Shown here in pieces: positions 34,985 to 58,807 of a stretch of 64,000 nucleotides of DNA. The notes below the pieces were generated by a model. It was not told where the DNA came from. It saw only the letters and a list, made by a program, of their open reading frames with translations, and did not search any database. Each line of letters opens with the position of its first letter. Position 1 is the stretch's first letter. Both the position numbers and the translations under genes were made by a program. The DNA comes from Whitmania pigra (Eukaryota; Annelida; Clitellata; Hirudinida; Haemopidae): assembly GCA_021613335.1 (NCBI GenBank), contig JAJTWR010000431.1:2877775-2941774 (forward strand). Direction: 5' to 3'.

Positions 34985-37900
34985 ATGCAAAATCATTACA
35001 AATCCAAGAGGCTGATTTCGCTGGCTGCGGCGATGATTTTCGCAGCTTGCAATACCGCTCCAGGGCCCAAGCCCCCAGCCGGAGAAACTCCCGACGCCGG
35101 GAAACTCCGTACAGATGCACCGACCATTGAATACAAGCCATCCAAGTACGACTGCGTTGTCGAACAGCCATGCTCGATGAACCCGCCGACCGTCGAGGGC
35201 AAAGACGTGAAGTATGCCATATCTCCACCTCTGCCCCAGGGGATGGCATTTGACGAGTCTCACGGCACTATCTCGGGCTCGCCACGCACAGCCACGCTCG
35301 CGATCACCTATACTGTCACTGCATCCAACTCTCTCGGGAAAGCAACTGCCAGTATCACCATTACTGTTCACGCCGCTGAATTGGCTCCGGAGAGTCTCAC
35401 GTACGCTTCGAGTTCGGCACAATGCACGATTGGAGTCGCGTGCCCCCCGAACCGACCGACAACGACAGGAGGGCGTCCGACGAACTTCTCGGTTACTCCT
35501 GCCCTACCTCCGGGATTAGTTATGGATCCAGTGACCGGGATCATCAGCGGCACTCCGACCACGATGAGCGCTGCGTTGAACTTCACTGTCACTGCTTCGA
35601 ACTCCATTGGACAGACGACGACCCAACTCTCCATCGCCATCAACGATATCCCCCCCAAGACACTCCTCTATAGTCCCTCATCGGCATCATTGATTCTAGG
35701 GGCGGTCGCAAAACATCTCACCCCCGTAGTCACAGGAGGAAAAGCCACTTCGTACTCGGTAAGCCCGGCGCTGCCTGCCGGAATTACTCTGGATGAAGCT
35801 ACTGGGGTCATCAGCGGGACGCCTTCGACCTTACTCGGATCGACCGTTTTCACTGTCGTCGCCAGCAATAGCGGGGGGACCGCTTCGGCCATCTTGAATA
35901 TCGCCGTGGTCGACAATCCACCCACGAATCTCAGGTATTCCCTCAATCCAGCCGTGTATGCGCTGAACAAGCCAATCGCGCCGAACATCCCCAGCAACAA
36001 TGGTGGAGCGACTGTTGAGTATACGCTGAGCCCTGGGCTCCCGGAAGGGTTAACCCTTGACAACACTACAGGGATCATCAGCGGAACCCCGACGAGTGAA
36101 ATGGCAACGAAGTTGTATATCATCACCGCTACGAACACTGGGGGAGCGACTTCGATCATGCTTCCAATCGAAATCAAAGCACTCGCTCCGACCGACCTTA
36201 CCTACACAGAGATGAACAGTACCTATCACGTCCATGTGCTCATTAGTCCCAACCATCCTAAGACAAAAGGGGCAACCCCAACCAAATACTCTATTACACC
36301 TGAACTCCCCGACGGACTCATCCTTTCGGAGACAACGGGAGTCATCAGCGGCACCCCAAATGCCGGAACACCGAAAGGTTCGTACACGGTTTCAGCCAGC
36401 ACCGAAGAGGGAACTACCAAAGCGGTGCTGACAATCGCAGTCACGGACGATCCGCCAAAAGAACTTACGTACGAAAGTTCCAAGAACATATACCGGCGAG
36501 ACACGGCTATTACTCCTCTTCTGCCTAGAAGCTCTGGAGGCAAAGCAACCAGCTACGATGTCAGTCCACCGCTGCCCGATGGGCTTGTCATCAACACCCA
36601 AACCGGAGAAATCAGTGGCACCCCAACGACAGTGGCAGCGGAGGCGAGCTACACCGTCAAGGCGATCAACGACTCCGGAGCGGCAGAAGTGGCGTTGACC
36701 ATAGCGGTCATCGAAAAGGCTCCGGGGGAGCTGGCCTACAGCCAAAACCCGGCAACGTACAATGCTGGCTCCACAATTGCGAACAATACTCCTGCCTCGA
36801 ATGGTGTTCTGATCACGAAGTATGAGGTATCTCCGGCGTTACCGACGGGTTTGACCATCGACGAAACCACAGGCGTCATCTCCGGAACCCCCACCGTGAC
36901 AACCCCCAAGGCTACCTACACAGTGACCGCTTCCAACGAAACCGACTCGACCAATGTTGAGCTAGAAATCGAAGTTCATGAACGTATCCCCGGACTCTAT
37001 GTGGATAATGTTCTCCTGCTCGACAAATCGACCTCGACGACTTTTGAGGCGCCACTCACCTTCGCCGCTGGTGACCACACCCTCGAAGTACAGGGCACCG
37101 GAGACTATACGCTCTCCGGAACCATTGGGGGCGAAGGCACACTCACCATCTCAGCAGGTGAAGGAAACACCATCACCCTGACAGGCGCACAACGCAACCA
37201 CGGGATAACCATCAAGAGCGGTAAGCTCGATTTGATGTCCCAAGGATGGGAGTTTGGCAACCCGGCACGCACCGAAACCGGCGTCATCAAGCGCTACGCA
37301 ACCCCGAAGGACCTTTCGAGCCAACTGCGGGCCTGGTTTAATGCCTCCAACGAGAAGACGCTCTTCAGTGATGCTAGCCGCACCACAAGGCAAAAAAACA
37401 CTGGCGGCGTTGTCCACGGCTGGACCAACCTTGCAAATCCAGCACTCTCTGCAAAGTCATCCAGCGGCCTGCCGACGTGGAGCGTGGATAAGGACTCTAT
37501 CGTCATGGTCAGCTCCGCCTACTCTATAGGTGATCTCGATCTGCGAGACGGAAGTACGGTCATTGCTGTCGTGAAAACGACTGCGCTGAACGGTCATAGT
37601 CCCGCGATCTTTACGGGATCGAAACTGGATGGAGCAATATCAGTGGCCTTGGGTGCTCAGCCGGGAGTAGTCGGTCAGTCCCCGACCATCTCCGGAGCCT
37701 ATGCACTCCCTACGGACAATTGGGTCATTGCAGACGCACAGCCGATAACCATGAATGAAAAGAAGCTGTTTGGCATGACGTCGAACACCAACCAGATAAT
37801 CCTGCAGATCAATGGCGAAACGGTCTCTGTAAGAAACAATCCGATCACCGCCCTTCCGCGCAGCAGTGAGTACTTCATCGCTCGCCGGGGGGACTCCACT

Positions 37901-38098
37901 CCTGAGTTTTGGAGTGGCAATTTCTTCGAACTTGTGGTGGCCAATGGATCGAACGACCTCGAAGCACTCACTGGGTATTTGGCCTGGCACAACAAGCTCG
38001 AATCCGAATTGCCTGAAGGCCACGCCTATCAGAAGGGTCCGCCCGCGGCCACTATCAGCGCCACTGGAGTGTTGATTGAGCCATATGTAAGCAAATAA
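34985..38098 (+). CDS. Array lipoprotein 1: seven Ig-like repeats plus LamG-like head
   Basis: The 1037-residue protein has a lipoprotein signal peptide (lipobox FAAC, Cys22), then seven putative Ig repeats of about 90 residues (about 40-666), each with a GL-x-D/N-x-x-TG-x-ISGTP hairpin like He_PIG domains. The first repeat carries a Cys pair (YDCVVEQPC). A Gly-rich beta connector (about 667-775, GTLTISAGEGNTITLTGAQ) leads to a head (776-1037) that looks like LamG/concanavalin-A jelly rolls: AWFNAS-x-x-x-TLFSD, VIAVVKTT, FIARRGDSTPEFWSGNFFEL and TGYLAWHNKL-x(3)-LPEGHAY. I use the ATG at 34985, since the signal peptide begins there in all copies; an in-frame GTG lies at 34967. A likely surface adhesin; the ligand is unknown. 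Confidence 0.85.
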   Translation: MQNHYKSKRLISLAAAMIFAACNTAPGPKPPAGETPDAGKLRTDAPTIEYKPSKYDCVVEQPCSMNPPTVEGKDVKYAISPPLPQGMAFDESHGTISGSPRTATLAITYTVTASNSLGKATASITITVHAAELAPESLTYASSSAQCTIGVACPPNRPTTTGGRPTNFSVTPALPPGLVMDPVTGIISGTPTTMSAALNFTVTASNSIGQTTTQLSIAINDIPPKTLLYSPSSASLILGAVAKHLTPVVTGGKATSYSVSPALPAGITLDEATGVISGTPSTLLGSTVFTVVASNSGGTASAILNIAVVDNPPTNLRYSLNPAVYALNKPIAPNIPSNNGGATVEYTLSPGLPEGLTLDNTTGIISGTPTSEMATKLYIITATNTGGATSIMLPIEIKALAPTDLTYTEMNSTYHVHVLISPNHPKTKGATPTKYSITPELPDGLILSETTGVISGTPNAGTPKGSYTVSASTEEGTTKAVLTIAVTDDPPKELTYESSKNIYRRDTAITPLLPRSSGGKATSYDVSPPLPDGLVINTQTGEISGTPTTVAAEASYTVKAINDSGAAEVALTIAVIEKAPGELAYSQNPATYNAGSTIANNTPASNGVLITKYEVSPALPTGLTIDETTGVISGTPTVTTPKATYTVTASNETDSTNVELEIEVHERIPGLYVDNVLLLDKSTSTTFEAPLTFAAGDHTLEVQGTGDYTLSGTIGGEGTLTISAGEGNTITLTGAQRNHGITIKSGKLDLMSQGWEFGNPARTETGVIKRYATPKDLSSQLRAWFNASNEKTLFSDASRTTRQKNTGGVVHGWTNLANPALSAKSSSGLPTWSVDKDSIVMVSSAYSIGDLDLRDGSTVIAVVKTTALNGHSPAIFTGSKLDGAISVALGAQPGVVGQSPTISGAYALPTDNWVIADAQPITMNEKKLFGMTSNTNQIILQINGETVSVRNNPITALPRSSEYFIARRGDSTPEFWSGNFFELVVANGSNDLEALTGYLAWHNKLESELPEGHAYQKGPPAATISATGVLIEPYVSK

Positions 38099-38117
38099 GC
38101 ATCAGACATAATCAGTT

Positions 38118-38154
38118 CAGCGCCTCCGCCAGCCATCACTGAGCGGAGGCGCTG
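38118..38154 (+). terminator. Hairpin after array gene 1
   Basis: CAGCGCCTCCGC / GCGGAGGCGCTG form a 12-bp stem with a 13-base loop, 20 bases after the stop. No T tract follows. Confidence 0.6.
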
Positions 38155-38200
38155 CAATGTGGTGCACTGGCGCAAATCATCATGACAGCAGCTGCTAGGG

Positions 38201-38230
38201 TTGCGTGCCAGCACCGCTCATCATTATCAG
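38201..38230 (+). promoter_or_regulatory. Array promoter, copy 2
   Basis: TTGCGT (38201-38206), 17 bases, TTATCA (38224-38229), then GATT. The leader is about 88 bases and contains a GTTCACGAGGTGACAC element shared with copies 3 and 6. Confidence 0.7.
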
Positions 38231-38324: not shown

Positions 38325-41300
38325 ATGAAAAACTCGATGCGACTCATATGCACTCAAGCGCTGGCTGCGTTTTTTGTCGCCGCTGCTTGCACCCCTAGTC
38401 CGAAACCTCATACATCTACCCGCGACGATCGAGATGGAGGAGTGGCAACAGCTAGCCCTCCAACCATCGAATATAAACCTTCCAAGTATGACTGTGTCGT
38501 TGAGCAGCCGTGCTCAATCAATGCCCCAATCGGCAGTAGCCCCAACGCAACGTATGACATTGAACCCGAAGCTCCTGCCGGCATGAGCTTCGACAGGGCT
38601 CTCGGGACCTTCTCAGGTTCACCGAAGGAACCGCGCTCCGAAACTAACTACACCATCTCAGTGACCAATTCCTTCGGAAAGGCTCATGCGACCCTTACAA
38701 TCACCATTCACGCGGCAGAACATCCGCCGAAAACTTTGAGCTATGTTGAGAACCCGGCGCACTACACTGTCGGCCTCGCCATCACCCAGAACAAGCCGGC
38801 GCATAGCGGTGGTACGCCTACCTCCTATTCCATCAATCCACCGCTGCCAGTTGGGCTCGCCATGGATCCGTTGTCGGGAGTGATCAGTGGCATACCGATG
38901 ACCGTGAGCGCCGCACGCAGCTTCAAAGTGACCGCAGCAAATGATCACGGGCAAGCGTCCGTTGAACTCTCCATCGCTATCGACGACATTCCGCCCGCTA
39001 GCCTTGTTTATAGCTCGCCTTCAGCCACCTACACCAAGGGAAACACCGCATCCCCCAACACCCCGAAAAGTTCGGGCGGGAAGCCGACGACCTTTACGGT
39101 GACCCCAGAACTCCCGTCCGGGCTCTTCCTCGACCCCGTGACCGGCGTCATCAGTGGAACACCCACCGCTGCGCTTTCGGTCACTACCTTTTTGGTCATC
39201 GCGAGCAATAGCGGAGGCAGAGCTTCGGCCAACGTGAGCATTGCCGTGAACGATGTTGGGCCGATGAACCTCAGATATTCATTGAATCCAGCAGTCTATG
39301 CGCGAAACAAGCCGATCAACGAAAATATCCCGAGCAATAACGGCGGCGCCCCGAAGTTCTACACCGTGAGTCCGGCGCTCCCAGCCGGACTGCATCTGGA
39401 TGTGCATACCGGCGTTATCAGCGGCACACCGAAGCATGAGAGTTCTGCAGCAAACTTCATCGTCACCGTCTTCAACACCGGCGGATCAACCTCGGTCATC
39501 CTCACAATCGAGGTGAAGGAGGTGGCGCCTACGGGCTTAACGTACGCTTCGAACCCGGCGAGCTACCATGTGCATACTCCCATCACTCCCAACGTACCGA
39601 GCACCACCGGCGCAGCTCCATCGAACTACACGGTGAGCCCGGAGCTTCCGTCGGGTCTGACCCTCTCCAATACAACAGGTGTCATCAGTGGGACCCCCGA
39701 AGTTGCTATTTCCAAGGGAGCCTTCACGGTGACCGCCAGCACCCCCGGCGGTGCAGTTTCCGAAATCCTCGAAATCGAAGTCGTAGACGATCCACCGAGC
39801 ACTCTTGCCTACGGAACACCGCATGCCGAGTATCAGCGGAACACGGAAGTCCCTCCGCATCGACCGACCAACAGCGGTGGCAGAGCAACCTCCTACTCGG
39901 TATCTCCTCCACTACCAGCCGGTCTAAAGTTCAACCTGGAAACTGGAGAGATCTCCGGTAGCCCCACCACGGTCACGCCAGAAGCGACCTACACCGTCAC
40001 TGCCAGCAACGGTTCAGGAATAGCAACGACCGACCTCCGCATCGTCGTGAAAGAGATGGCTCCGTCAGGACTTGCGTACGCGCAGAATCCGGCCTCCTAT
40101 AGGGATGGCTCTCCTGTCCTTGTGAACGAACCCTCGTCCAATGGTGGGCCCATCGCCCGCTACACAGTCACTCCGGCGTTGCCAACGGGTCTCAGGCTGG
40201 ACCCCACGACCGGCAGCATCTCGGGCATCCCCATCGGTACAGTTCCGAGCATGGTCTACACAGTGACTGCTGCCAATGAAACCGATGTCACGACGGCCGA
40301 ACTGGTCATCGAGGTCAAGGAACGAATTCCTGGTCTCTATCTGAACAATGTCCTCCTCGTCGATAAAGCTGTTTCGACAACCTACGAGCAACCGCTTGTT
40401 TTCCCGGCCGGGGCGCATACGCTCGAAAGTGCCGGTGCTGGGGACTACACCCTCACCGGCACCTTCTCCGGACCGGGAACACTACGTATCTCTGCCGGAG
40501 AGGGGAACACCATTTTCCTGCATGGAGCACAACTGAATCCGAGTGTCATAGTCACGAGTGGCACGCTCGACCTTATGGAACTGAAGTGGAGCTATGGAAA
40601 TCCTACGCGAAGCGGCATGGGGATTATCCGGCGGCTTGCCACCCCAAAGGACCTTTCGACAGAGCTTCGGGCTTGGTTCGACGCAGCCAATGGCAGCACC
40701 GTGTTCAGTGACTCAAGTCGCATGAGTATCCAGCGGAATGCGGGAGGTGTTGTGCACGGGTGGATGAACCTCGCCAATCCAGCTATCTCCGCTACGTCGC
40801 TCGACGGTATGCCCATGTGGAGCATTCAAAAAGACTCAATCGTTCTCAAGAACGCTGCGTTTAAGCTCGAAGATCTCCGGCTCACGAATGGATCCACGGT
40901 GGTCGCCGTCGTGAAGAGTACTGCAATGACCGGAGCTGCGCCGGCAATCTTTACGGGAGTAAGAGATATTTCCCAGATTCCAGTGATGCTCGGCGCCGAC
41001 CCGCTTATCCGAAATTCAATCCCGACGATATGTGCTGCCTACAACACCCACGAGACGCCTTCTTCTTGGACGGCGACAGACATGCAACCACTCACCCTCG
41101 ATCAGAAGCAGATGTACGGATCAACCGTAGGCGACACCGGTATACGCTTCCAGATCGATGGAGTGACTGTCGGGACGCAGCCGACGAAGGCTCCCTCATT
41201 CCCGCAGCCACTTACGTATCGAATCGGCCGGCGCTGGGATATGAGAGACTTCTGGAACGGCAACTTCTATGAAATCGTGGTGACTGGAAACTCCGAAGAC

Positions 41301-41426
41301 ATCGAAGCCATATCCGGCTACATGGCCTGGCACAACAACCTGAGCAGCACCTTGCCAGAAACCCACCGCTTCCAAGCAAACCCTCCATCGGTGCTCATTA
41401 CCGCGACTGGCACCACGATTCAGTAA
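38325..41426 (+). CDS. Array lipoprotein 2: seven Ig-like repeats plus LamG-like head
   Basis: The 1033-residue protein has lipobox VAAAC, seven ISGTP/ISGSP Ig repeats starting with the Cys-pair repeat (YDCVVEQPC), the beta connector (AGEGNTIFLHGAQ) and a jelly-roll head with AWFDAANGSTVFSD, MLGADPLIRNS, RIGRRWDMRDFWNGNFYEI and SGYMAWHNNL. It is nearly the same as array protein 3 module by module, marking a recent duplication. ATG at 38325 after a weak AGGA site. Confidence 0.85.
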   Translation: MKNSMRLICTQALAAFFVAAACTPSPKPHTSTRDDRDGGVATASPPTIEYKPSKYDCVVEQPCSINAPIGSSPNATYDIEPEAPAGMSFDRALGTFSGSPKEPRSETNYTISVTNSFGKAHATLTITIHAAEHPPKTLSYVENPAHYTVGLAITQNKPAHSGGTPTSYSINPPLPVGLAMDPLSGVISGIPMTVSAARSFKVTAANDHGQASVELSIAIDDIPPASLVYSSPSATYTKGNTASPNTPKSSGGKPTTFTVTPELPSGLFLDPVTGVISGTPTAALSVTTFLVIASNSGGRASANVSIAVNDVGPMNLRYSLNPAVYARNKPINENIPSNNGGAPKFYTVSPALPAGLHLDVHTGVISGTPKHESSAANFIVTVFNTGGSTSVILTIEVKEVAPTGLTYASNPASYHVHTPITPNVPSTTGAAPSNYTVSPELPSGLTLSNTTGVISGTPEVAISKGAFTVTASTPGGAVSEILEIEVVDDPPSTLAYGTPHAEYQRNTEVPPHRPTNSGGRATSYSVSPPLPAGLKFNLETGEISGSPTTVTPEATYTVTASNGSGIATTDLRIVVKEMAPSGLAYAQNPASYRDGSPVLVNEPSSNGGPIARYTVTPALPTGLRLDPTTGSISGIPIGTVPSMVYTVTAANETDVTTAELVIEVKERIPGLYLNNVLLVDKAVSTTYEQPLVFPAGAHTLESAGAGDYTLTGTFSGPGTLRISAGEGNTIFLHGAQLNPSVIVTSGTLDLMELKWSYGNPTRSGMGIIRRLATPKDLSTELRAWFDAANGSTVFSDSSRMSIQRNAGGVVHGWMNLANPAISATSLDGMPMWSIQKDSIVLKNAAFKLEDLRLTNGSTVVAVVKSTAMTGAAPAIFTGVRDISQIPVMLGADPLIRNSIPTICAAYNTHETPSSWTATDMQPLTLDQKQMYGSTVGDTGIRFQIDGVTVGTQPTKAPSFPQPLTYRIGRRWDMRDFWNGNFYEIVVTGNSEDIEAISGYMAWHNNLSSTLPETHRFQANPPSVLITATGTTIQ

Positions 41427-41449
41427 CATTATCCTGGAAAGTACACCGG

Positions 41450-41478
41450 GGCCCCCATTGACCTACGTCAGCGGGGGC
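41450..41478 (+). terminator. Hairpin after array gene 2
   Basis: GCCCCC and GGGGGC enclose a TTGAC-CTAC-GTCAG inner stem. The same design recurs after gene 3. Confidence 0.6.
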
Positions 41479-41525
41479 ATCGCAAATAGGAACGGCGCAA
41501 ATCAGCCTGTTTGCGACTGCAAGTG

Positions 41526-41555
41526 TTGCGTGTCAATCCAGCTCATCGTTATCAG
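41526..41555 (+). promoter_or_regulatory. Array promoter, copy 3
   Basis: TTGCGT (41526-41531), 17 bases, TTATCA (41549-41554), then GATTC. The leader of about 88 bases has GTTCACGAGGGGACACATC. Confidence 0.7.
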
Positions 41556-41649
41556 ATTCAGGTGCTCTGACTGCCGAGGGCAGTCATGCATGTAGTCAGT
41601 GTTCACGAGGGGACACATCACCCGCTATCGACAGAGTAATCACACATTC

Positions 41650-44600
41650 ATGATAACGACGATACGATCCAAAAGCACTCTTGCACTTGCAGCGGTTTTT
41701 GTTGCCGCTGCTTGCGCCCCGAGCTCCGAATCTAACTCTTCACCCAATGACAACGAAGGTGGCAAAGCGGCCACCGCAGGCCCACCTACTATCGAATATA
41801 AACCTTCCAAATATGATTGCGTCGTAGCGCAGCCATGCTCGATCAATGCCCCTTCCGTCGGTGGTGCGGGCGCAACGTACGACATTGAGCCCCAAGTCCC
41901 TGCCGGACTGAATTTTGATAGGGCTCTAGGGACGTTCACGGGTTCGCCAAAGGAGCCACGCCCGGAGACCAGCTACACCATCACGGCGACCAATACGTTC
42001 GGAAAGGCCACCACAACTCTTTCGATCACCGTTCACGCACCAGAATTACCGCCGAAAACTTTGACCTATCTTGATAACCCGGCGAACTACACTGTCGGCC
42101 TCGCCATCAACCAGAACAAGCCGACGCACAGCGGTGGCCTACCAACCTCCTATTCAATCTATCCCCCGCTGCCTTCCGGGCTCGTCATGGATCCGTTGTC
42201 CGGAGTGATAAGTGGCACACCGATGACCGTGAGCGCCGCGAGCACCTTCAAAGTTACCGCCGCAAATGATCACGGACAAACGTCCATCGAACTCTCCATC
42301 GCTATCAACGACATCCCGCCAACAAGTCTTGTCTATAGCTCGCCTTCAGCGTCCTACACCAAGGGTGTCACTGCCACCCCCAATAGTCCAAAAGTCGTTG
42401 GCGGAAAGCCCACGACTTTTACGGTAACCTCAGACCTCCCGGCCGGGCTTTTTCTCGACAGCGCGACCGGCGTCATCAGTGGAACACCGACGAGCGTAGT
42501 CTCAGCCTCGACTTTCGTGGTCACGGCGAGCAATAGCGGTGGAAGTGCCACGACCAATGTGAACATAACGGTAAACGATGTTGAGCCGACAAACCTCAGA
42601 TACTCATTGAATCCAGCAGTCTATGCGCGAAACAAGCCAATCAGTGACAATATTCCGAGCAGCAACGGCGGTGCTGCGAAGAGCTACACCGTTAGTCCGG
42701 CGCTCCCTGCCGGACTGCACTTGGATGTGCATACCGGCATTATCAGTGGCACACCAAAGCATGAGAGCTCCGCAGCGAACTTCATCGTCACCGCCATCAA
42801 CTCCGGAGGCTCAACCTCGCTCTTCATCACAATTGAGGTGAAGGAAGTAGCGCCTACGGGCTTAACCTACGCTGCGAACCCGGTGAGCTACCATGTGCAT
42901 ACTCCCATCACACCCAATGTGCCGAGCACCACTGGTGCAGCCCCGTCGAACTACACAGTGAGCCCGGCACTTCCATCGGGTCTGAGCTTGTCCAAAACGA
43001 CGGGAGTCATCAGTGGGACCCCGGGGGTTGCAATTTCCAAGGGATCCTTCACGGTGACCGCCAGCACACCCGGCGGTGCAGTTTCGGAAATCCTCGTCAT
43101 CGAAGTGACGGACGATCCACCAAGCACTCTTGCCTACGGAACACCGTATGCCGAGTATCGGCGCAACACGGAAATCCCTCCGAATCGACCGACCAACATC
43201 GGCGGTAGAGCAACCTCCTACTCCGTCTCTCCTCCTCTGCCCGCAGGTTTGAGCTTCAATCTGGAAACAGGAGAAATCACCGGTAGCCCGACCGTTATGG
43301 CTGCTGAAGCGACCTACAAGGTCACTGCCAGCAACGGCTCAGGGTCTGCGACGACCGACCTTCGCATTGTCGTGAAAGAAATGGCACCCTCAGGGCTCGC
43401 GTATGCGCAGAATCCAGCTTCCTATGTGGATGGTTCCCCTTCACCTGCCAACGTACCCTCGTCAACTGGTGGGCCCATCGTCAGCTACTCTGTCAAACCG
43501 GCGTTGCCGACAGGTCTGACGCTGGACACGACGACCGGCATCATCTCGGGCATACCCATCGGCAAGGTTCCGAGCACGGTCTTCACAGTGACCGCTGCAA
43601 ACGAAACCGATGTCACGACGGCCGAGTTGGTCATAGAGGTGAAGGAGCGTATTCCTGGACTCTATCTGAACAATGTACTCCTCCTCGATAAAGCTATTTC
43701 GACAACCTACACACGTCCGCTCGTCTTCCCGACTGGGGCGCACACTCTCGAAGTCGCCGGGGTTGGAGACTACACCCTCACCGGGACGATCTCCGGGCTG
43801 GGAACGGTACGAATATCGGCCGGAGAGGGAAACACCATCTTCTTGTATGGCGCCCAGCTCAACCTGGGCATCACGGTTACCAGCGGCACGCTCGACTTGA
43901 TGGAACTCAAGTGGAACTTCGGAACTCCAACGAGAAGTGACACGGGGATTATCCGCCGGTATGCAAATCCGAAGGATTTGTCTACAGAGCTTCGGGCGTG
44001 GTTCGACGCAGCGAATCCCAACACCCTGTTCAGCGACGCGAGTCGTTTGAGCAGCCAGCGCAATGCAGGGGGAGTCGTTCATGGTTGGACGAACCTCGCC
44101 AATCCAGAGCTCTCGGCATCGACGCTCGACGGGTTGCCCATGTGGAGCATGCAGAAGGACTCGATAGTCCTGAAGAACGCTGCGTTTAAGCTCGGTGATC
44201 TGCGGCTCACGAATGGAGCCACTGTGATCGCCGTCGTGAAGACCACCGCTCTGACCGGACTTGCGCCTGCAATCTTTACCGCGACAAGGGAGCTTGCCTC
44301 AGTGCCGATGATGCTCGGTGCCGATCCATTTTACCGCAATGCGGTTCCAACGATAACTGCTGCCTACAACACCTACGAGACACCAGCATCATGGACAGGA
44401 TCCGACGTGCAACCACTCACCTTGAATCAGAAGCAAATGTTTGGAGCAAGTATAGGCGAAACGGGCATTCTCCTACAGATTGATGGGGTGACGGTCTCGA
44501 AGCAGCCGACACGTACGCCTCATTTCCCGAAACCGGCTACGTATCGAATCGGTCGGCACTGGGATCTCAGAGATTTCTGGAACGGGAATTTCCATGAAAT

Positions 44601-44751
44601 CGTGGTGACAGGGAACACCGGAAACCTCGATGCCATCTCCGGCTACATGGCTTGGCACAACAACATGAGCAGTTCCTTACCGGGCACCCACAGGTTCAAG
44701 GCAGCACCTCCATCGGTGCTTATCAGTGCGACTGGTACGACGATTCAGTAA
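41650..44751 (+). CDS. Array lipoprotein 3: seven Ig-like repeats plus LamG-like head
   Basis: The 1033-residue protein has a lipobox VAAAC, seven Ig repeats (first with YDCVVAQPC), the connector AGEGNTIFLYGAQ and a head with AWFDAANPNTLFSD, MLGADPFYRNA, RIGRHWDLRDFWNGNFHEI and SGYMAWHNNM. The stalk repeats align one to one with those of protein 2 (for example SYHVHTPITPNVPSTTGAAP in the fifth), while the head differs most around the MLGADP loop. The ATG at 41650 is preferred; codons back to 41599 belong to the leader. Confidence 0.85.
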   Translation: MITTIRSKSTLALAAVFVAAACAPSSESNSSPNDNEGGKAATAGPPTIEYKPSKYDCVVAQPCSINAPSVGGAGATYDIEPQVPAGLNFDRALGTFTGSPKEPRPETSYTITATNTFGKATTTLSITVHAPELPPKTLTYLDNPANYTVGLAINQNKPTHSGGLPTSYSIYPPLPSGLVMDPLSGVISGTPMTVSAASTFKVTAANDHGQTSIELSIAINDIPPTSLVYSSPSASYTKGVTATPNSPKVVGGKPTTFTVTSDLPAGLFLDSATGVISGTPTSVVSASTFVVTASNSGGSATTNVNITVNDVEPTNLRYSLNPAVYARNKPISDNIPSSNGGAAKSYTVSPALPAGLHLDVHTGIISGTPKHESSAANFIVTAINSGGSTSLFITIEVKEVAPTGLTYAANPVSYHVHTPITPNVPSTTGAAPSNYTVSPALPSGLSLSKTTGVISGTPGVAISKGSFTVTASTPGGAVSEILVIEVTDDPPSTLAYGTPYAEYRRNTEIPPNRPTNIGGRATSYSVSPPLPAGLSFNLETGEITGSPTVMAAEATYKVTASNGSGSATTDLRIVVKEMAPSGLAYAQNPASYVDGSPSPANVPSSTGGPIVSYSVKPALPTGLTLDTTTGIISGIPIGKVPSTVFTVTAANETDVTTAELVIEVKERIPGLYLNNVLLLDKAISTTYTRPLVFPTGAHTLEVAGVGDYTLTGTISGLGTVRISAGEGNTIFLYGAQLNLGITVTSGTLDLMELKWNFGTPTRSDTGIIRRYANPKDLSTELRAWFDAANPNTLFSDASRLSSQRNAGGVVHGWTNLANPELSASTLDGLPMWSMQKDSIVLKNAAFKLGDLRLTNGATVIAVVKTTALTGLAPAIFTATRELASVPMMLGADPFYRNAVPTITAAYNTYETPASWTGSDVQPLTLNQKQMFGASIGETGILLQIDGVTVSKQPTRTPHFPKPATYRIGRHWDLRDFWNGNFHEIVVTGNTGNLDAISGYMAWHNNMSSSLPGTHRFKAAPPSVLISATGTTIQ

Positions 44752-44776
44752 CCTGTACATTCAACAGAACACCGGG

Positions 44777-44804
44777 GCCCCCGCTGACCTACGTCGACGG
44801 GGGC
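44777..44804 (+). terminator. Hairpin after array gene 3
   Basis: GCCCCCGC-TGAC-CTAC-GTCG-ACGGGGGC, followed by TTCGCATTTT. Closely related to the hairpin after gene 2. Confidence 0.65.
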
Positions 44805-44875
44805 TTCGCATTTTCAGGCCCATCGACTTCATTGATCGCAAAGCGGCAAATCAACTACCAAAACTGCAGCTCATA

Positions 44876-44905
44876 TTGCGCTACCAAAGACGAAGTCGTT
44901 ACTGA
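44876..44905 (+). promoter_or_regulatory. Array promoter, copy 4 (degenerate)
   Basis: TTGCGC (44876-44881), 17 bases, TTACTG (44899-44904), then ATTGAG. It keeps the spacing but changes the downstream box, in front of the truncated gene 4. The leader is about 70 bases. Confidence 0.55.
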
Positions 44906-44982
44906 TTGAGCCTTATGGCGTCACGATTTCGCCATTTCCGAGGGGGCTGCTCAACCACGTTTCAGCGAAAGAGTTTACACCC

Positions 44983-46173: not shown

Positions 46174-46187
46174 ATCGATTGCTCTTG

Positions 46188-46217
46188 TTGCGTATCGCGC
46201 TATCCCATCGTTATCAG
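46188..46217 (+). promoter_or_regulatory. Array promoter, copy 5
   Basis: TTGCGT (46188-46193), 17 bases, TTATCA (46211-46216), then GAAC. It drives the small lipoprotein ORF and presumably array gene 5 behind it, which has no copy of its own. Confidence 0.65.
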
Positions 46218-46296
46218 AACTGAACAGCAATGGGTTGTGCCCATACACAACCAGCTCACAGACGACTTGCTGTGGTCGTTCACGGAAGGATTCATC

Positions 46297-46464
46297 ATGC
46301 ATTTCCATCTTGCGCTGAAGCGCCTACTTCTGCTCTCAGCGTCCGTAGGCATCCTCGCTTGCGGCTATGCTCCAGACGTTGCCTTCGAGAGTAGCTCGGC
46401 AAACGCGGCGGCTCCAAAATCCAGCGCAACGACAACAAAGTGCGGCGGCAGGATTCCCAAGTGA
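46297..46464 (+). CDS. Small lipoprotein stub within the array
   Basis: The 55-residue product has a lipoprotein signal peptide (LLLLSASVGILAC) and then about 34 polar residues with one more Cys and no Ig repeat. GGAAGGATTCATC before the ATG is a good ribosome site. It sits where an array gene would start, directly behind an array promoter, so it may be the leader end of a lost copy or a small secreted partner of array protein 5, whose ATG is 49 bases downstream. Confidence 0.5.
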   Translation: MHFHLALKRLLLLSASVGILACGYAPDVAFESSSANAAAPKSSATTTKCGGRIPK

Positions 46465-46512
46465 GCCCAACCCTTCCAACAAGGCACTGATCCACAACCG
46501 AGGAGCCACACA

Positions 46513-49098: not shown

Positions 49099-49122
49099 TC
49101 ATGATGTATTGATGTAGCCATG

Positions 49123-49154
49123 AAACCCCTGTCGGCTCTCGCTGGCGGGGGTTT
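49123..49154 (+). terminator. Hairpin after array gene 5
   Basis: AAACCCC-TGTCGGC-TCTC-GCTGGCG-GGGGTTT, about 25 bases after the stop, followed by CGCATT as after genes 3 and 6. Confidence 0.65.
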
Positions 49155-49162
49155 CGCATTAG

Positions 49163-49192
49163 TTGCGTTTCGTACGTGTTGCTCGTTATCAG
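49163..49192 (+). promoter_or_regulatory. Array promoter, copy 6
   Basis: TTGCGT (49163-49168), 17 bases, TTATCA (49186-49191), then GATGAG. The -35-like box starts only 8 bases after the previous hairpin. The leader is about 65 bases and contains TCGATGAGGGGACAAC. Confidence 0.7.
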
Positions 49193-49262
49193 ATGAGTAC
49201 ACCAAGGCGATTTCTTTTCGCCTTCGATGAGGGGACAACTCTACAACCGAAGGATCCACACC

Positions 49263-52112: not shown

Positions 52113-52136
52113 TCACAAAACATAGAGGTAGCTTTG

Positions 52137-52168
52137 AAGCCCCTGCTGGCCGACGCTGGCGGGGGCTT
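52137..52168 (+). terminator. Hairpin after array gene 6
   Basis: AAGCCCC-TGCTGGC-CGAC-GCTGGCG-GGGGCTT, nearly the same as the hairpin after gene 5. Confidence 0.65.
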
Positions 52169-52265
52169 CGCATTGAGAGCACCCTGACAGAGGCGCTGTC
52201 ATCTAGTGCGGCCAGAAATACGCCTGTGCGGGAACTGTAGGTAACACAAATTGTTCTCCGCCATA

Positions 52266-52295
52266 TTGCAGACGTGGCTGTTTCAGCGTTATCAC
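52266..52295 (+). promoter_or_regulatory. Array promoter, copy 7
   Basis: TTGCAG (52266-52271), 17 bases, TTATCA (52289-52294), then CATTC. The leader is about 71 bases. Confidence 0.65.
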
Positions 52296-52372
52296 ATTCT
52301 CATGGCACAGCAACCTAGGCATTCTCGGCAGCACCCGGGAAATATTTGGAACACATCCTTGTGAGCACAACT

Positions 52373-55300
52373 ATGCGTTATCGCAACAAATTCATGTTTA
52401 TCGCAGGGCTATGCGCACTTCTTTGCACATCAACTTGCTCTTCCGGAGCAGGTCCTGAAATCGGCAAGAATCCTGACAGTGGCGCGCCGAACGTCACAGC
52501 GCCGCAGATGGAATACAAGCCTGCAACGTACGAGTGCGTGGTCGCTCAACCCTGTGCTATAGGCCCCCCGGTTGCCCCGGGACAGGCATCGAACTTTGCA
52601 GTATCACCTGGCATTCCAGATGGGATGAGCTTCGATCCAGCGACTGGAGCTATCACCGGGATCCCAAAAAGTCCTAGGCCCGCGACGAAGTACATTGTCA
52701 TAGCTAAGAATTCACAAGGCCAGCTTTCCACAATCCTGCGCCTCACTGTTCATATTGCAGAGCCAGCACCCTCAGAACTCCGCTATGACTTGAACCCGAC
52801 AAGCTACCAGGTGGGGGTAAGCATACCCCCGAATAAACCCTCCCTGCGCGGCGGAAAACCAACGATGTACCAGGTTACTCCCGAGCTTCCCGTCGGGCTG
52901 GTCCTCGAACCGCTTACCGGTTTCATCAGCGGTACACCGACGAGCGTTACCCCAATGGGTACCTATACCGTAAAGGCTTCAAACGACGTTGGGGAAGCTG
53001 CGGTGGAGCTGTCGATTGCTATCAATGATATTGCTCCAGCAGAACTCAAATACAGTTGGCCCTCCCTGATCCTTCAGGTTGGCTCCAACTCTGCACCCAA
53101 CATTCCTACTGTCGGTGGAGGAAAGGTTACCGATTATTCGGTGATCCCTCCCCTGCCCGCGGGACTCGAACTTGACCCAAGCACTGGAGTGATTCGTGGA
53201 ATTCCACGAGTGCCCATCTCGGCAACAACATTTACGATTACCGCAAACAATAGCGGTGGGCACACCACAGCCAGAGTCAACATGGAAGTGATCGACAATC
53301 CGCCATCAAATCTCTCCTACTCCATGAATCCAGCCGTGTACGCTATGGGCAAGCCGATAAATCCAAACACGCTCTCCAACAGCGGAGGCGCTCCGACGAA
53401 ATTTACGCTGAGCCCTGAGCTCCCCGCAGGATTGATGCTCGATCAGCTCTCTGGAACCATCAGTGGTGTCCCATCGGAAGAAAGCCGTGCTCAGAGTTAC
53501 ATCATCACTGCGATCAACTCCGGAGGTTCAAGCTCCACTATTCTTTCCCTTGCGGTGAAGGTAGTCGCTCCCACTGGCCTCACCTATCTGGATAATCCGG
53601 CTAGGTATCGCATCCGTGTGCCGGTCACTCCTAATCTGCCAAGTTCGACAGGGGCGAAACCGACGAGCTATTCAGTAGCTCCAGAGCTCCCAGCAGGGCT
53701 CACTTTCTCGAACAGTACCGGCATCATCAGCGGGACGCCGAAAGTTGCCGTCTCCAAGGGTGCCTATGTCGTGACCGCGGGGACGGATGGCGGCGAAGTC
53801 TCTTCGCTTGTAGTGATTGATATCGCCGATGACCCGCCGGTCGACCTTCAATATCCAGCATCGTCCGCAGGATATCAGCAAGGGACACCTATCGAGCCAC
53901 TGCTCCCAACAAATTCCGGCGGCACCGCGACCTATTACTCGGTGAGCCCCGGGTTACCGGCTGGCCTTCAGCTCAATACGGTCAGCGGAGAGATTTCCGG
54001 TACCCCCGCCGCCGTGGCACCTTCCGCGACCTACCGGGTAACTGCCAGCAATAGCTCTGGGGAGACGAGCGCGGAAATCACGTTTGCCGTCGCGGAGATG
54101 GCTCCGGCTGGGCTCAGCTACTCCCAGAATCCAGCAAGCTATGCCGATGGCACTCCCATCAGTGCCAACACGCCAAGCTCAAACGGAGGAAAAGTGCTCC
54201 GGTACTCTATTGCACCGCCGTTGCCGCAGGGCCTTCACTTCGATGCGACGACCGGCGTCATCTCCGGTATACCCATAGGCAAGTTCCCCATGACCTCCTA
54301 CCGGATCACTGCCGCGAACGATTCGGGTGCGACGAGAGTCGAACTGCACCTAGAAATCAAAGAACGCACCCCGGGCCTGTATTTTGACAATGTCCTCCTC
54401 CACGACAAAGCGGCTTCGACGACCTTCGAACGTCCATTGGTACTGTCTGCTGGAACCCATACATTCGAGGTCGCTGGAACGGGCGACTACACCCTCTCCG
54501 GGTCGATCTCTGGTGATGGCACATTGAATATCTCCGCTGGCGAAGGCAATACCATCCTGCTCACGGGTGCTCAACTTGCCGCAGGGGTTACCGTAGTGAG
54601 CGGCACCGTCGATGCCCGGGAGCTCAAGTGGGCCTTCGGCAAACTGTCTACCGCCAAGTCTGGAGTTGTCAAACGCCTCGCCACTCCCTTGGACATCTCA
54701 GAAGACCTGCGCGCATGGTTCGATGCATCGAATCCTCAAACTATTTTCATGGACTCCCAACGAAAACATCGTCAGCGCAACGCCGGTGGAATTGTCCACG
54801 GATGGAGCAACCTTGCAAAATCTGGGATACATGCTCAAACTGAGGACGGTTATCCGACGTGGAGCCTCACCAAGGATTCGATCCTCCTAGGAAACGCATC
54901 CTTTATTCTCGCTGACTTGGAACTCTCGAATGGAGCAACTGTCGTAGCAGTTGTAAAAACCACTTCGTTCACTGGGCCTCGCCCTGCAATATTTACCTCG
55001 GAACACTTGGGAAGAACTCAAGACATCGCAATTATTGCGCATCTGGGTGCGCATCCAAGAGGTCAGGAAGATTCGGGTTTTCTTCCGAACATTGTTGCGG
55101 GGTATTACGCAGCATCCAACCTCAAGTGGGTGCGGACAAACAGCTTCCCCGTTGAACTCGACAAGAAGACGATGTTTGGAATGACCACCAGCACCTCAGA
55201 AGTCGTTCTCCAAATCGAAGGTGCAACAGTCGCTTCAACACCTGCAACCATTGACGCATTTCCCCCAAATTCCAGGTATCGCATTGGGCGTCGTTGGGAC

Positions 55301-55486
55301 TGGCAGGAATTTTGGAACGGCAACTACTATGAAATTGTTGTTGCGAGCAGCCCACAACACATCGAAGCACTTTCTGGATACATGGCCTGGCACAACAGTT
55401 TGAACCAGGAACTGCCAGAAGAGCACCGGTTCAAGAATGCACCACCCATGGTCACTCTATCGGCGACGGGCACGGTGATTCACTAA
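52373..55486 (+). CDS. Array lipoprotein 7: seven Ig-like repeats plus LamG-like head
   Basis: The 1037-residue protein has a signal peptide ending near CTSTC, seven Ig repeats (first with YECVVAQPC), and a gene 1-type connector (ISAGEGNTILLTGAQ). The head begins like those of genes 1-3 (AWFDASNPQTIFMD) but its middle is gene 5-like (IIAHLGAHPRG, KKTMFGMTTSTSEVVLQ, RIGRRWDWQEFWNGNYYEI), a clear mosaic. It ends SGYMAWHNSLNQELPEEHRF. The ATG at 52373 lies 9 bases after GTGAGC; upstream in-frame codons are leader. Confidence 0.85.
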   Translation: MRYRNKFMFIAGLCALLCTSTCSSGAGPEIGKNPDSGAPNVTAPQMEYKPATYECVVAQPCAIGPPVAPGQASNFAVSPGIPDGMSFDPATGAITGIPKSPRPATKYIVIAKNSQGQLSTILRLTVHIAEPAPSELRYDLNPTSYQVGVSIPPNKPSLRGGKPTMYQVTPELPVGLVLEPLTGFISGTPTSVTPMGTYTVKASNDVGEAAVELSIAINDIAPAELKYSWPSLILQVGSNSAPNIPTVGGGKVTDYSVIPPLPAGLELDPSTGVIRGIPRVPISATTFTITANNSGGHTTARVNMEVIDNPPSNLSYSMNPAVYAMGKPINPNTLSNSGGAPTKFTLSPELPAGLMLDQLSGTISGVPSEESRAQSYIITAINSGGSSSTILSLAVKVVAPTGLTYLDNPARYRIRVPVTPNLPSSTGAKPTSYSVAPELPAGLTFSNSTGIISGTPKVAVSKGAYVVTAGTDGGEVSSLVVIDIADDPPVDLQYPASSAGYQQGTPIEPLLPTNSGGTATYYSVSPGLPAGLQLNTVSGEISGTPAAVAPSATYRVTASNSSGETSAEITFAVAEMAPAGLSYSQNPASYADGTPISANTPSSNGGKVLRYSIAPPLPQGLHFDATTGVISGIPIGKFPMTSYRITAANDSGATRVELHLEIKERTPGLYFDNVLLHDKAASTTFERPLVLSAGTHTFEVAGTGDYTLSGSISGDGTLNISAGEGNTILLTGAQLAAGVTVVSGTVDARELKWAFGKLSTAKSGVVKRLATPLDISEDLRAWFDASNPQTIFMDSQRKHRQRNAGGIVHGWSNLAKSGIHAQTEDGYPTWSLTKDSILLGNASFILADLELSNGATVVAVVKTTSFTGPRPAIFTSEHLGRTQDIAIIAHLGAHPRGQEDSGFLPNIVAGYYAASNLKWVRTNSFPVELDKKTMFGMTTSTSEVVLQIEGATVASTPATIDAFPPNSRYRIGRRWDWQEFWNGNYYEIVVASSPQHIEALSGYMAWHNSLNQELPEEHRFKNAPPMVTLSATGTVIH

Positions 55487-55498
55487 TCACCCATCCGC

Positions 55499-55524
55499 GC
55501 TTGGGTTCGACCATTGACCCAAGC
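55499..55524 (+). terminator. Hairpin after array gene 7
   Basis: GCTTGGGT / ACCCAAGC with a 10-base loop, 12 bases after the stop. The sequence is unrelated to the hairpins after genes 2, 3, 5 and 6. Confidence 0.55.
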
Positions 55525-55602
55525 ATAGCAGGCACCCGGTCTGCGATGACTCACGGCAAACTACTCTGCTCTGACCTGCGAGCTGTTTAGCTGACGGTAG
55601 AG

Positions 55603-55632
55603 TTGCGTGGTTAACAGACCCATCGTTATCAG
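55603..55632 (+). promoter_or_regulatory. Array promoter, copy 8
   Basis: TTGCGT (55603-55608), 17 bases, TTATCA (55626-55631), then GATTCGTGAGGCATG. The following leader (GACCATTCCGTCGCTATCCACGA) closely resembles that of gene 1. Confidence 0.7.
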
Positions 55633-55711
55633 ATTCGTGAGGCATGCGACCATTCCGTCGCTATCCACGATGAGCAACTATGAACCACTTTCTAGTGAGC
55701 CCCATATAACC

Positions 55712-58700
55712 ATGCAAAGTATCTATAATCACAGGAGTATTCTCACTCTGGCCGCGGCTTTTTTCGCTGCGGCCTGCAGTTCCGGACCCGGTACGAACCC
55801 CGACAGTGGGATGAATCCCGATAGCGGTGTGCCAAGGGTTGGCCCGCCGACCATCGAGTTTAAACCTGCAAAATTCGATTGCGTGGTCGCTCAGCCTTGC
55901 TCGATCAACGCTCCAGTTGTCGGCGGAGCTATCGCTACATACACCATCGCCCCGCAGCCGCCCGAAGGGATGACCTTCGATCCCAACGTCGGCAACTTCA
56001 CCGGTTCCCCCAAGGCCGCGTTGGCAGAGACCAGCTATACGGTCACCGCAACCAACTCTTTGGGCAAAGCAACCGCGAGCTTCAGTATCATCGTCCACGC
56101 CGCGGAGCTTCCGCCTGCGACCTTGAACTATGCAACAAATCCGGCCAACTATACCGTTGGCGTGGCCATCACGGCCAATAAGCCGTCGAATAGCGGTGGC
56201 CAACCGACAGCCTACAGCATCTCTCCGGCGCTTCCGAATACGCTGGTCATGGATCCGCTCACAGGCGTCATCAGTGGAACACCCCTCGCAGTCACTGCCT
56301 CCGCCACCTATACGGTGACAGCGAGCAACGGCGCCGGGCAAACGACAGTTGCGCTCGTCCTCGCCGTGAACGACATCGCCCCGAAGAGCCTCGCTTACTC
56401 AACTCCCGCAGCGGTCTACATCAAGGGGAGCGCGGCAACGCCTAATACTCCCACCGTTACCGGCGGCAAAGCCACTTCGTTCACCGTGAGTCCGGCACTG
56501 CCGGCGGGCCTCACCTTGGATAAGGCCACTGGCGTCATCAGTGGTACCCCTTCCGCGGTGGCTGCGGCGACCAGCTATACGGTCACTGCTCTCAACAGCG
56601 GAGGAAGCGTCAATGCCTCGGTGAGCATTACTGTCAACGACACTTCGCCCTCGAACCTCAAGTACGCCTTGAATCCGGCGGTGTATGCCAAGAACAAGCC
56701 TGTTCCCCCGAACGCTCCGTCGAACAGCGGTGGCACTCCGACGAATTTTGCCGTGAGCCCGGCGCTCCCGGCAGGACTCACCATCGACGCGGCTGGTGTC
56801 ATCAGCGGCACGCCGACCAATGAGAGCGCGCCTACGGACTACACCGTGACCGCCACCAACACCGGTGGTTCAGCGACGGTAACGCTCTCCATCGAGGTGA
56901 AGATCGTCGCTCCGACCGGCATCACCTATGCGGTCAATCCGGCGAGCTACCACGTCAACACCCTCATCACCCCGAACGTACCGACCACCACCGGCGCCGC
57001 ACCCACCAACTACGCGGTGAGTCCGGCCCTACCCGCTGGCCTGTCGCTCTCCAGCACGACCGGCGTCATCAGCGGCACGCCGACGGCTGCCGCATCGAAG
57101 GGTGCCTATACGGTCACTGCCAGCACCTCTGGCGGCCAAGTCTCGGTGATTTTGGAGATCGATGTCGCCGACGACCCACCGAGCGCACTCACCTACCTCA
57201 CCCCCAATGGCGTCTACCGCCGTGGTACCGCCATCGCTTCGAATCGCCCGGCGAATTCCGGCGGCGTCGCGACCTCCTTTACGGTCGACCCGGCACTGCC
57301 GGCCGGCTTGAGCCTCAACGCTGGTACTGGAGAAATCTCCGGCACCCCGACAGCAGTGAGCGCTGAAGCAACCTACAAGGTCACTGCGAGCAACGCCTCT
57401 GGTTCGACGAGCGCCGACCTCACCATCACCGTACTCGAGATGGCTCCGGCCGGACTCAGCTACGCCGTAAACCCGGCGACCTACAACGACGGGTCTCCCA
57501 TTGCGGACAACGCACCGTCCTCGACTGGTGGTCCGATCGTCAGCTACGCGATTTCTCCAGCACTGCCGAACGGCCTCCAGATGGATACGACGACCGGCGT
57601 CATCACCGGCACCCCTGTCGGCGCCGCCGCGCTCGCCACCTACACCGTCACCGCTTCCAACAGCACGGATGTCGCCACGGTGGACCTCCAACTCGAAGTC
57701 AAAGAGCGCATCCCCGGCATCTACCTGGACAATGTGCTCCTCCTCGACAAGGCAGTATCGACGACCTACGAGCAGCCACTCGCCTTCGCGGCCGGTGCGC
57801 ACACCCTCGAAATCGCCGGTACAGGAGATTACACCATCAGCGGCTCCATCTCCGGTGCGGGGACGGTGACCATCTCGGTGGGCGACGGGAACACCCTGTT
57901 CCTCACCGGTGCCCAGCTCAACACTGGCCTCACCGTCGCGAGCGGCACCCTGGACTTGATGGCTCTGAAATGGGCCTTCGGAAGCCCCGCGCGCAGCGGT
58001 ACCGGGACCATCAAGCGCTATGCGACGCCGAAGGACCTGTCGAGCCAGCTTCGGGTGTGGTTTGACGCGGCGAACGCGCAGACCCTGTTCAGCGATGCGA
58101 GCCGAACGAACCAACAGCGCACTGCCGGTGGTGTCGTCCACGGTTGGACCAACCAAGCGAATCCGAGCATGTCTGCATCGACCCTCAGTGGGCTACCGAT
58201 GTGGAGCATCAACAAAGACTCGATAGTGTTGAGCAACGCCTCCTACACCATCGGCGCGCTCGACTTCACAGGCAACGCCACAATAATCGCGGTCGTGAAG
58301 ACCACTGCATTGGTCGGGCCGGTGCCAACGATCTTCACCTCAGAGTACGATGGCAAATTTGTTCCCCTGATGCTGGGCGCGGATCCGTTTGCGCGATATA
58401 CTGTGCCGACGATCACCGCAGGACAATATTCCAGTGTCAGCCCGTTCTGGACCATAGCCGATGTTCAGCCCATCACCCTGAACCAGAAACAGATGTTCGG
58501 GACCACCATCGGCGCCGCAGGGGTCTCGCTCCAGATCGACGGCTCGCCAGTCGCGAACAATCCCACCGCAGTCCCATCCATACCCCAGGCGAAGGCCTAC
58601 CGCATTGGCCGACGCTGGGATGGCGCAGAGTACTGGAACGGGAACTTCTTTGAAATTGTGGCAGCCAATGACGCGACCAGCCTTGAGGCGCTGACCGGGT

Positions 58701-58807
58701 ACATGGCGTGGCACAACGGCCTCGAAACCGTCTTGCCGGATACCCACAAATTCAAGGCCGCTGCTCCCTCGGTGGTCATCTCCGCGAGCGGAACAACTGT
58801 GAAGTAA
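55712..58807 (+). CDS. Array lipoprotein 8: seven Ig-like repeats plus LamG-like head
   Basis: The 1031-residue protein has lipobox AAAC, a short NPDSG repeat after the Cys, seven Ig repeats (first with FDCVVAQPC), the connector SVGDGNTLFLTGAQ and a head with VWFDAANAQTLFSD, MLGADPFARYT, RIGRRWDGAEYWNGNFFEI and TGYMAWHNGLETVLPDTHKF. The repeats are closest to a family consensus and third-position G/C is visibly higher than in the other copies, nearer to housekeeping genes. It may be the oldest or most expressed copy. The ATG at 55712 starts the signal peptide; codons back to 55607 are leader. Confidence 0.85.
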   Translation: MQSIYNHRSILTLAAAFFAAACSSGPGTNPDSGMNPDSGVPRVGPPTIEFKPAKFDCVVAQPCSINAPVVGGAIATYTIAPQPPEGMTFDPNVGNFTGSPKAALAETSYTVTATNSLGKATASFSIIVHAAELPPATLNYATNPANYTVGVAITANKPSNSGGQPTAYSISPALPNTLVMDPLTGVISGTPLAVTASATYTVTASNGAGQTTVALVLAVNDIAPKSLAYSTPAAVYIKGSAATPNTPTVTGGKATSFTVSPALPAGLTLDKATGVISGTPSAVAAATSYTVTALNSGGSVNASVSITVNDTSPSNLKYALNPAVYAKNKPVPPNAPSNSGGTPTNFAVSPALPAGLTIDAAGVISGTPTNESAPTDYTVTATNTGGSATVTLSIEVKIVAPTGITYAVNPASYHVNTLITPNVPTTTGAAPTNYAVSPALPAGLSLSSTTGVISGTPTAAASKGAYTVTASTSGGQVSVILEIDVADDPPSALTYLTPNGVYRRGTAIASNRPANSGGVATSFTVDPALPAGLSLNAGTGEISGTPTAVSAEATYKVTASNASGSTSADLTITVLEMAPAGLSYAVNPATYNDGSPIADNAPSSTGGPIVSYAISPALPNGLQMDTTTGVITGTPVGAAALATYTVTASNSTDVATVDLQLEVKERIPGIYLDNVLLLDKAVSTTYEQPLAFAAGAHTLEIAGTGDYTISGSISGAGTVTISVGDGNTLFLTGAQLNTGLTVASGTLDLMALKWAFGSPARSGTGTIKRYATPKDLSSQLRVWFDAANAQTLFSDASRTNQQRTAGGVVHGWTNQANPSMSASTLSGLPMWSINKDSIVLSNASYTIGALDFTGNATIIAVVKTTALVGPVPTIFTSEYDGKFVPLMLGADPFARYTVPTITAGQYSSVSPFWTIADVQPITLNQKQMFGTTIGAAGVSLQIDGSPVANNPTAVPSIPQAKAYRIGRRWDGAEYWNGNFFEIVAANDATSLEALTGYMAWHNGLETVLPDTHKFKAAAPSVVISASGTTVK

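Follow-up and report, generated by a model that had tools for sequence, protein, structure and literature searches.

An array of eight lipoprotein genes with ordered He_PIG stalks and LamG-like heads, a candidate surface adhesin repertoire, on a bacterial contig of the Whitmania pigra assembly

The window analysed here, 64,000 nucleotides of the Whitmania pigra assembly GCA_021613335.1 (contig JAJTWR010000431.1, positions 2,877,775 to 2,941,774), is the last 64 kb of a 2,941,774-base contig, C360, in an assembly that totals 178 Mb in 381 contigs; positions given without a contig or locus name are those of the window. Between 34985 and 58807 it contains eight head-to-tail genes on the plus strand, g1 through g8, seven of which are full and one of which (g4) is truncated at its 3' end, exactly where an initial annotation made from the sequence alone had placed them. 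The array sits between ppk/tatA and an ABC-MlaE gene pair (Pfam scan of the flanking proteins). The full proteins are 861-1037 amino acids (aa) long and consist of a lipobox signal peptide and a stalk of five to seven He_PIG repeats, behind which come a connector (~110 residues) and a head (~255); start codons were picked by eye, and the lipobox cysteine that ends the signal peptide is a by-eye reading in all eight translations. The genes are as follows.

34985-38098, plus strand: g1, lipoprotein with seven He_PIG repeats, connector and LamG-like head, 1037 aa
38325-41426, plus strand: g2, architecture of the g1 type, 1033 aa; forms a recent duplicate pair with g3
41650-44751, plus strand: g3, architecture of the g1 type, 1033 aa
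44983-46173, plus strand: g4, truncated, repeats 1-4 only, no connector or head, 396 aa
46513-49098, plus strand: g5, five repeats (positions 1 and 4-7), connector and head, 861 aa; g6-like stalk and g7-like head
49263-52112, plus strand: g6, six repeats, connector and head, 949 aa
52373-55486, plus strand: g7, seven repeats, connector and head, 1037 aa
55712-58807, plus strand: g8, seven repeats, connector and head, 1031 aa; orthologue of P0001 (78% identical in the module)

The modular architecture of the initial annotation holds, with a lipobox read in all eight proteins and He_PIG (PF05345) above the curated Pfam cut-off of 24 bits in each of them (128.8-228.7 bits; 7, 7, 7, 4, 5, 6, 7 and 7 stretches in g1 through g8, respectively). 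A profile made from g8 served to delimit the repeats in 16 proteins, the eight of the window and eight relatives (P0001 through P0008, see below), and for 105 of the 106 repeats the nearest repeat of another protein lies at the same stalk position, in agreement with the position-specific identity noticed earlier; the sole exception is the second repeat of g6, which is 0.43 identical to position 3 and 0.41 to position 2. Mean identity is 0.58 for repeats at the same position, compared with 0.38 at different positions and 0.38 within a gene; at this within-gene average of 38% the repeats are not the highly identical tandem repeats of Periscope-type proteins. The g5 stalk has neither position 2 nor position 3, and that of g6 is missing one of these. 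The stalk is evidently an ordered rod that has been copied along with the whole gene. Residues 256-401 of g1 match solved domains of the staphylococcal adhesin SraP (PDB 4m03, E 8.1e-8; also 4m00).

The connector and head were treated as one module, with that of g8 serving as the query.

57704-58804, plus strand: connector (first ~110 residues) and LamG-like head of g8

Eight of 13 modules match Laminin_G_3 (PF13385) at E ≤ 1, the best at 9.6e-5. A profile of 22 heads compared with a profile of the four units of a remote relative, P0009, gave 98.4% over 221 columns, and a profile of 15 heads gave 97.4%; a reversed-template control gave 0.1%. P0009 itself scores 136.1 bits for Laminin_G_3 in the best of its three Laminin_G_3 stretches. 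The head would thus be LamG/ConA-like, homologous to accepted LamG domains, as this profile comparison supports. By sequence no solved structure gave a credible match to the head (best E 0.71), and no enzyme family scored above cut-off in the heads (Pfam, NCBIfam); an enzyme-type head, one result that would have refuted the initial annotation, did not appear. The comparison of variability drew on 15 proteins, namely P0001 through P0008 (P0003 is N-terminally short) and the seven full proteins of the window. Apart from the signal and linker, variability peaks in the middle of the head (g8 residues 860-970), where mean identity is 0.44; the rest of the head stands at 0.60 and 0.55, the connector at 0.65 and the repeats at 0.50-0.67. 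The connector is the best-kept part apart from repeat 5, and the core residues of the head are strictly conserved among the copies.

Each unit appears to carry its own signals. The promoter-like signature TTGC-N19-TTATCA has seven matches in the window, where 0.01 are expected and none of 100 shuffles reaches seven, a significance that is overstated because the pattern was derived from those very sites. All seven are on the plus strand, and each precedes an array unit, namely g1, g2, g3, a 55-codon open reading frame (ORF) before g5, g6, g7 or g8; their spacers have diverged and the two elements are unchanged. The seven full genes are all followed by a stable hairpin (z -2.1 to -5.7), and the truncated g4 is not (z -0.87). 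These features, found by pattern search and by folding, respectively, are listed here with the altered signature ahead of g4 and the short ORF.

34875-34903, plus strand: promoter-like signature TTGC-N19-TTATCA, g1
38099-38170, plus strand: terminator-like stable hairpin stretch after g1, z -5.2
38201-38229, plus strand: promoter-like signature, g2
41427-41495, plus strand: hairpin stretch after g2, z -3.1
41526-41554, plus strand: promoter-like signature, g3
44752-44820, plus strand: hairpin stretch after g3, z -3.8
44876-44904, plus strand: altered signature ahead of g4, second element TTACTG
46188-46216, plus strand: promoter-like signature, 55-codon ORF and g5
46297-46464, plus strand: 55-codon lipoprotein-like ORF between g4 and g5, read from the sequence
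49099-49165, plus strand: hairpin stretch after g5, z -5.7
49163-49191, plus strand: promoter-like signature, g6
52113-52180, plus strand: hairpin stretch after g6, z -3.7
52266-52294, plus strand: promoter-like signature, g7
55487-55540, plus strand: hairpin stretch after g7, z -2.1
55603-55631, plus strand: promoter-like signature, g8
58808-58870, plus strand: hairpin stretch after g8, z -3.9

A tightened signature, derived from the same sites, occurs at 38 places in the whole assembly (six for a backwards control), 24 on other contigs and 14 on C360, the latter being the seven sites counted twice because the contig ends overlap (see below). A looser form gave one match each in L087 and L117, which are loci of other organisms, and none in L035 through L038. 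In 40000-59500 a sigma-70 scan found three promoter-like sites, compared with 8.1 in shuffles, and terminator-like sites numbered 17, compared with 16.9 in shuffles; since that count is at shuffle level, the hairpins were judged by folding. Small hairpins soon after the signature reach z below -1.9 in three of eight leaders (34904-34965, 41555-41620 and 49192-49245), and their sequences differ; there is a hint at most of a conserved 5' leader hairpin across the array. The 55-codon ORF, to which no Pfam family matched, begins at the same distance from its signature as the other units, and may be the beginning of what was once an array gene.

The connector-head module is not exclusive to the array, since six further genes on C360 carry it. 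Four of these are tandem lipoprotein genes in a second cluster at 1.950-1.958 Mb (L035:6480-9792 and L036:1-4207), whose proteins have the module behind the signal peptide, followed by terminal Cys-rich repeats and no immunoglobulin-like (Ig-like) stalk; the other two are single genes with the module alone. We note that an M16 peptidase pair lies near both module clusters, at window 60496-63332 beyond the MlaE pair (Pfam) and, by eye, directly downstream of the second cluster (L036:4380-7163 and L036:7291-9999). In a set of 5.8 billion proteins, each search of which scored only about 8,000 candidates, two module searches gave the same eight array-type proteins, P0001 through P0008; P0009 (E 1.1e-5) was found in the first of them only, and P0010, with Cys-rich repeats in the layout of the second cluster, came from a profile search aimed at shorter proteins. 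P0002, P0003, P0005, P0006 and P0007 are on one contig of 1,149,146 bases and P0001, P0004 and P0008 on one of 270,419 bases, and it is our guess that both belong to one genome. A seven-module profile gave 18 pattern stretches in a genome contig collection and seven in viral contigs, none of them confirmed as the module; tblastn gave no module match in plasmids and phages; and none of eight genomes reached through their RpoA loci has the module. In overlapping sets from the class and phylum of G001, 2 of 147 and 4 of 195 gave matches, of only 27-79 residues, and these were not counted as members; the positive control on the own genome was run with a single-protein query, not with the alignment queries. 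The module therefore appears to be confined almost to one lineage. A literature search, largely outside subscription journals, found among the matches listed no paper on a He_PIG/LamG lipoprotein array or on the connector-head module.

A tree of 22 modules joins g8 with P0001 (support 100/99), g2 with g3 (100/99) and g5 with g6 (100/100), and places six of the eight relatives in a group of their own (100/98); the pairing of g1 with P0002 is by best identity only (61%). Thus g8, and perhaps also g1, has an orthologue in the other array, and the rest are mostly lineage-specific copies. Mapping the label "array of this genome" onto the tree takes four changes (at least three by the starred branches), indicating that some copies predate the split of the lineages and that others arose after it. 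As the initial annotation anticipated for a related genome, the two genomes have different copy sets and no fixed set of eight orthologues.

Duplication of whole genes, the history first proposed, accounts for ordered repeats that were copied with their genes but is not the whole of it, as parts of genes, including a head, have been exchanged between copies. In sliding windows, identity between g5 and g6 is 73-90% over the stretch that begins at g8 residue 334 and ends where the connector starts, but drops to 31-43% in windows with starts at 812-924; g5 and g7 share 53-71% there. At informative sites g5 sides with g6 over g7 at 226 of 250 before residue 800 and at 28 of 87 after it (p 0.0012 against one half), a switch that none of 2000 permutations equalled. 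Synonymous divergence (dS) between g5 and g6 climbs from about 0.45 in the stalk and connector to 1.4-2.6 in the head, values that are imprecise at such height, and selection on amino acids does not explain this rise. The final two dozen residues of the two are again nearly identical, so the exchanged piece may stop short of the gene end. Among 105 trio tests of the window proteins, 17 had no permutation as extreme in 300, and seven of these also switch majority; all seven involve g5 and g7 and are therefore read as one event. The corresponding 168 tests of the relatives gave 36 with none of 300 permutations as extreme, five of which also switch majority. Here P0003 and P0007 agree at 83-97% in windows as far as 423 and at 60-68% in windows 483-632, and for P0004 and P0005 agreement is 90-100% in windows 274-812 and again at the end, but 61-80% in windows 842-924. 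The genes are evidently mosaics, with g5 joining a g6-like stalk and connector to a g7-like head.

Two contigs of the assembly each carry a full-length bacterial 16S gene (the second on C4), which together with the assembly size of 178 Mb suggests a eukaryote sequenced along with bacteria. The window's RpoA is 78% identical to that of a Myxococcales metagenome-assembled genome, the next 17 matches being at 71-77%, and the carrier of the array is probably a small-genome relative of myxobacteria. Window 27135-63996 matches C360:1-36865 at 99.65%, the differences being 126 substitutions and a single gap. We take this to mean that the chromosome is circular and about 2.905 Mb long and that one assembly represents two haplotypes of a ~37-kb stretch. 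All eight array frames are open in both haplotypes, which differ in them at 30 synonymous and 23 non-synonymous sites, compared with 32 and 5 in seven neighbours (Ppx, PPK, TatA, ABC, MlaE and two M16, three of them with trimmed N-termini; Fisher p 0.003). With 32 of the 37 differences in the neighbours synonymous, sequencing error is an unlikely source of the contig-end differences. Eleven of the 23 non-synonymous differences are in g8; as to gene conversion as their source, the alternate residue is present in a paralogue or relative at five of eight sites, with no consistent donor.

We favour, at a probability of about 0.6, the reading that the array is a surface adhesin or lectin repertoire diversified by duplication and recombination, because of its architecture, SraP-like stalk, LamG-like head with a variable middle, lineage-specific copies, mosaics, signature, hairpins, open frames and excess amino-acid change. 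Unit duplication, deletion within stalks, one truncation and segment exchange that includes one head (g5/g7) are evident in the genes. The lipid anchor and the long stalk, of up to seven Ig-like domains, would put the head outside the cell, where it may bind a glycan or a protein; duplication would provide copies and recombination would pair heads with stalks, and one cell could bear several binding specificities together, for holding prey, a host surface or matrix. Contact with prey, host, matrix or kin as the role is not separable from sequence.

Several points weigh against this reading. No module among the 13 reaches the Laminin_G_3 cut-off of 27.6 bits, a refinement of the earlier LamG assignment, and P0003 alone among the eight array-type relatives matches the family at E ≤ 0.1 (24.3 bits); the head profile match rests on the LamG units of one protein, P0009, whose boundaries were cut by eye; and the connector has no named function. 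The array is of identical size in both haplotypes. The g2/g3 pair has no exchange pattern and the g5/g7 exchange is old (head dS 1.4-1.9), so the data give no ongoing exchange in this genome.

The excess amino-acid change fits relaxed change as well as diversifying change, and an array ratio of 23 to 30, as against 5 to 32 in the seven neighbours, would also be expected under relaxed constraint if these were structural proteins of a surface coat, matrix or vesicle, their copies adding dosage while weakly constrained heads drift. The vesicle-specific proteins listed for Myxococcus xanthus include a putative Ig domain protein (PMC4158809). We nevertheless regard such a structural role as unlikely, given strictly conserved head core residues, a connector that is better kept than all but repeat 5, eight frames open in both haplotypes, and a head exchange that dosage alone does not predict. 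The concentration of haplotype differences in g8 (11 of 23 non-synonymous) would suit self or kin recognition, a role like that of TraA, in which the variable heads would mark identity by binding matching heads on sister cells, and diversity would persist since strains with differing heads fail to interact; among the myxobacteria, to which the lineage is related, self-recognition is governed by a polymorphic surface receptor (PMC6372800). One genome with several different heads speaks against a single matching tag, and this role is in our opinion quite unlikely. Laminin_G_3 is described as belonging to the ConA-like lectin/glucanase superfamily, and the heads could on that ground be carbohydrate-binding or hydrolytic parts of a locus for capture and degradation of polysaccharides, but with no glycoside hydrolase or TonB receptor among the flanking genes scanned and no enzyme family above cut-off in the heads, a nutrient uptake function seems very improbable. 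That the heads are chiefly targets of phage or grazers, with escape driving their change and binding secondary, accords with variation that peaks in the presumably outermost part but is most doubtful, as phage records and viral contigs, the only phage evidence sought, hold no relative of the module and seven retained full copies are an odd answer to escape.

Known systems resemble an adhesin repertoire of this kind in part. SraP (serine-rich adhesin for platelets) is a Gram-positive, cell-wall anchored protein that carries an L-type lectin module. The g1 stalk resembles its stalk-type domains (4m03). SraP is, however, a single gene, and the head module of the array gave no match to it. Leptospiral Lig proteins are lipid-anchored; their repeat family differs from the He_PIG of the array, and they are not known to have a LamG head. 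They are tandem immunoglobulin-like surface proteins on an envelope of the Gram-negative type, but comprise LigA, LigB and LigC rather than an array of eight (PMC7821625). The closest parallel in the way it works would be the mosaic adhesive trimer (MAT) fibres of Bdellovibrio bacteriovorus, which are trimeric beta-helix fibres with 13 and 8 members of two kinds (PMC10769870). They too are a repertoire of paralogous surface fibres that differ at their tips, and one MAT pair has very similar N-termini and an exchanged C-terminus, as do g5 and g6 (PMC10769870); the array proteins differ in being lipid-anchored Ig-type stalks with LamG-like heads in a single array. No MAT-type family is among the Pfam matches of the eight window proteins, no search aimed at MAT having been made, and the parallel would not make the array a MAT family. 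Related bacteria have TraA, a surface adhesin whose variable domain is polymorphic, but in myxobacteria it is encoded by one traA locus with a partner traB rather than an array (PMC6372800). Periscope proteins are likewise monomeric tandem-domain rods that project a functional domain, but theirs have near-identical repeats and variable stalk length, while the array has repeats 38% alike within a gene, a fixed order and a varying head (PMC9704523).

The flanking genes scanned with Pfam encode Ppx, PPK, TatA, ABC/MlaE, two M16 peptidases, a GGDEF protein and a metallophosphoesterase. No mobile element was found among the nine flanking proteins scanned, nor by eye in the first 90 residues of each other window ORF, as the initial annotation had it. 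A defence system was considered and rejected; g1 and g8, the two proteins scanned, gave one weak PADLOC match (g1, E 0.0032) and none, respectively. Contigs C49 and C115 have bacterial-looking cytochrome oxidase genes, and COX1 matches are on four contigs, including C360.

Little is understood of how predatory and host-associated bacteria recognise the targets they hold. Stalks of this family are common; what is new here is the nearly lineage-confined connector-head module, the mostly lineage-specific copies, the mosaic genes and the two haplotypes, and a fixed stalk order with head exchange is the opposite of stalk-length variation. We suggest, tentatively, that this may be a recognition repertoire in which an array-private signature drives self-contained units and recombination moves LamG heads among stalks of constant order, renewing the grip of a myxobacterial relative that lives with a eukaryote and bacteria; it would be a bacterial counterpart of a variable-head receptor cluster. 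With its seven homologous heads, whose stalks share one order, an old head exchange, and relatives in another genome, the locus makes the specificity of the heads directly testable.

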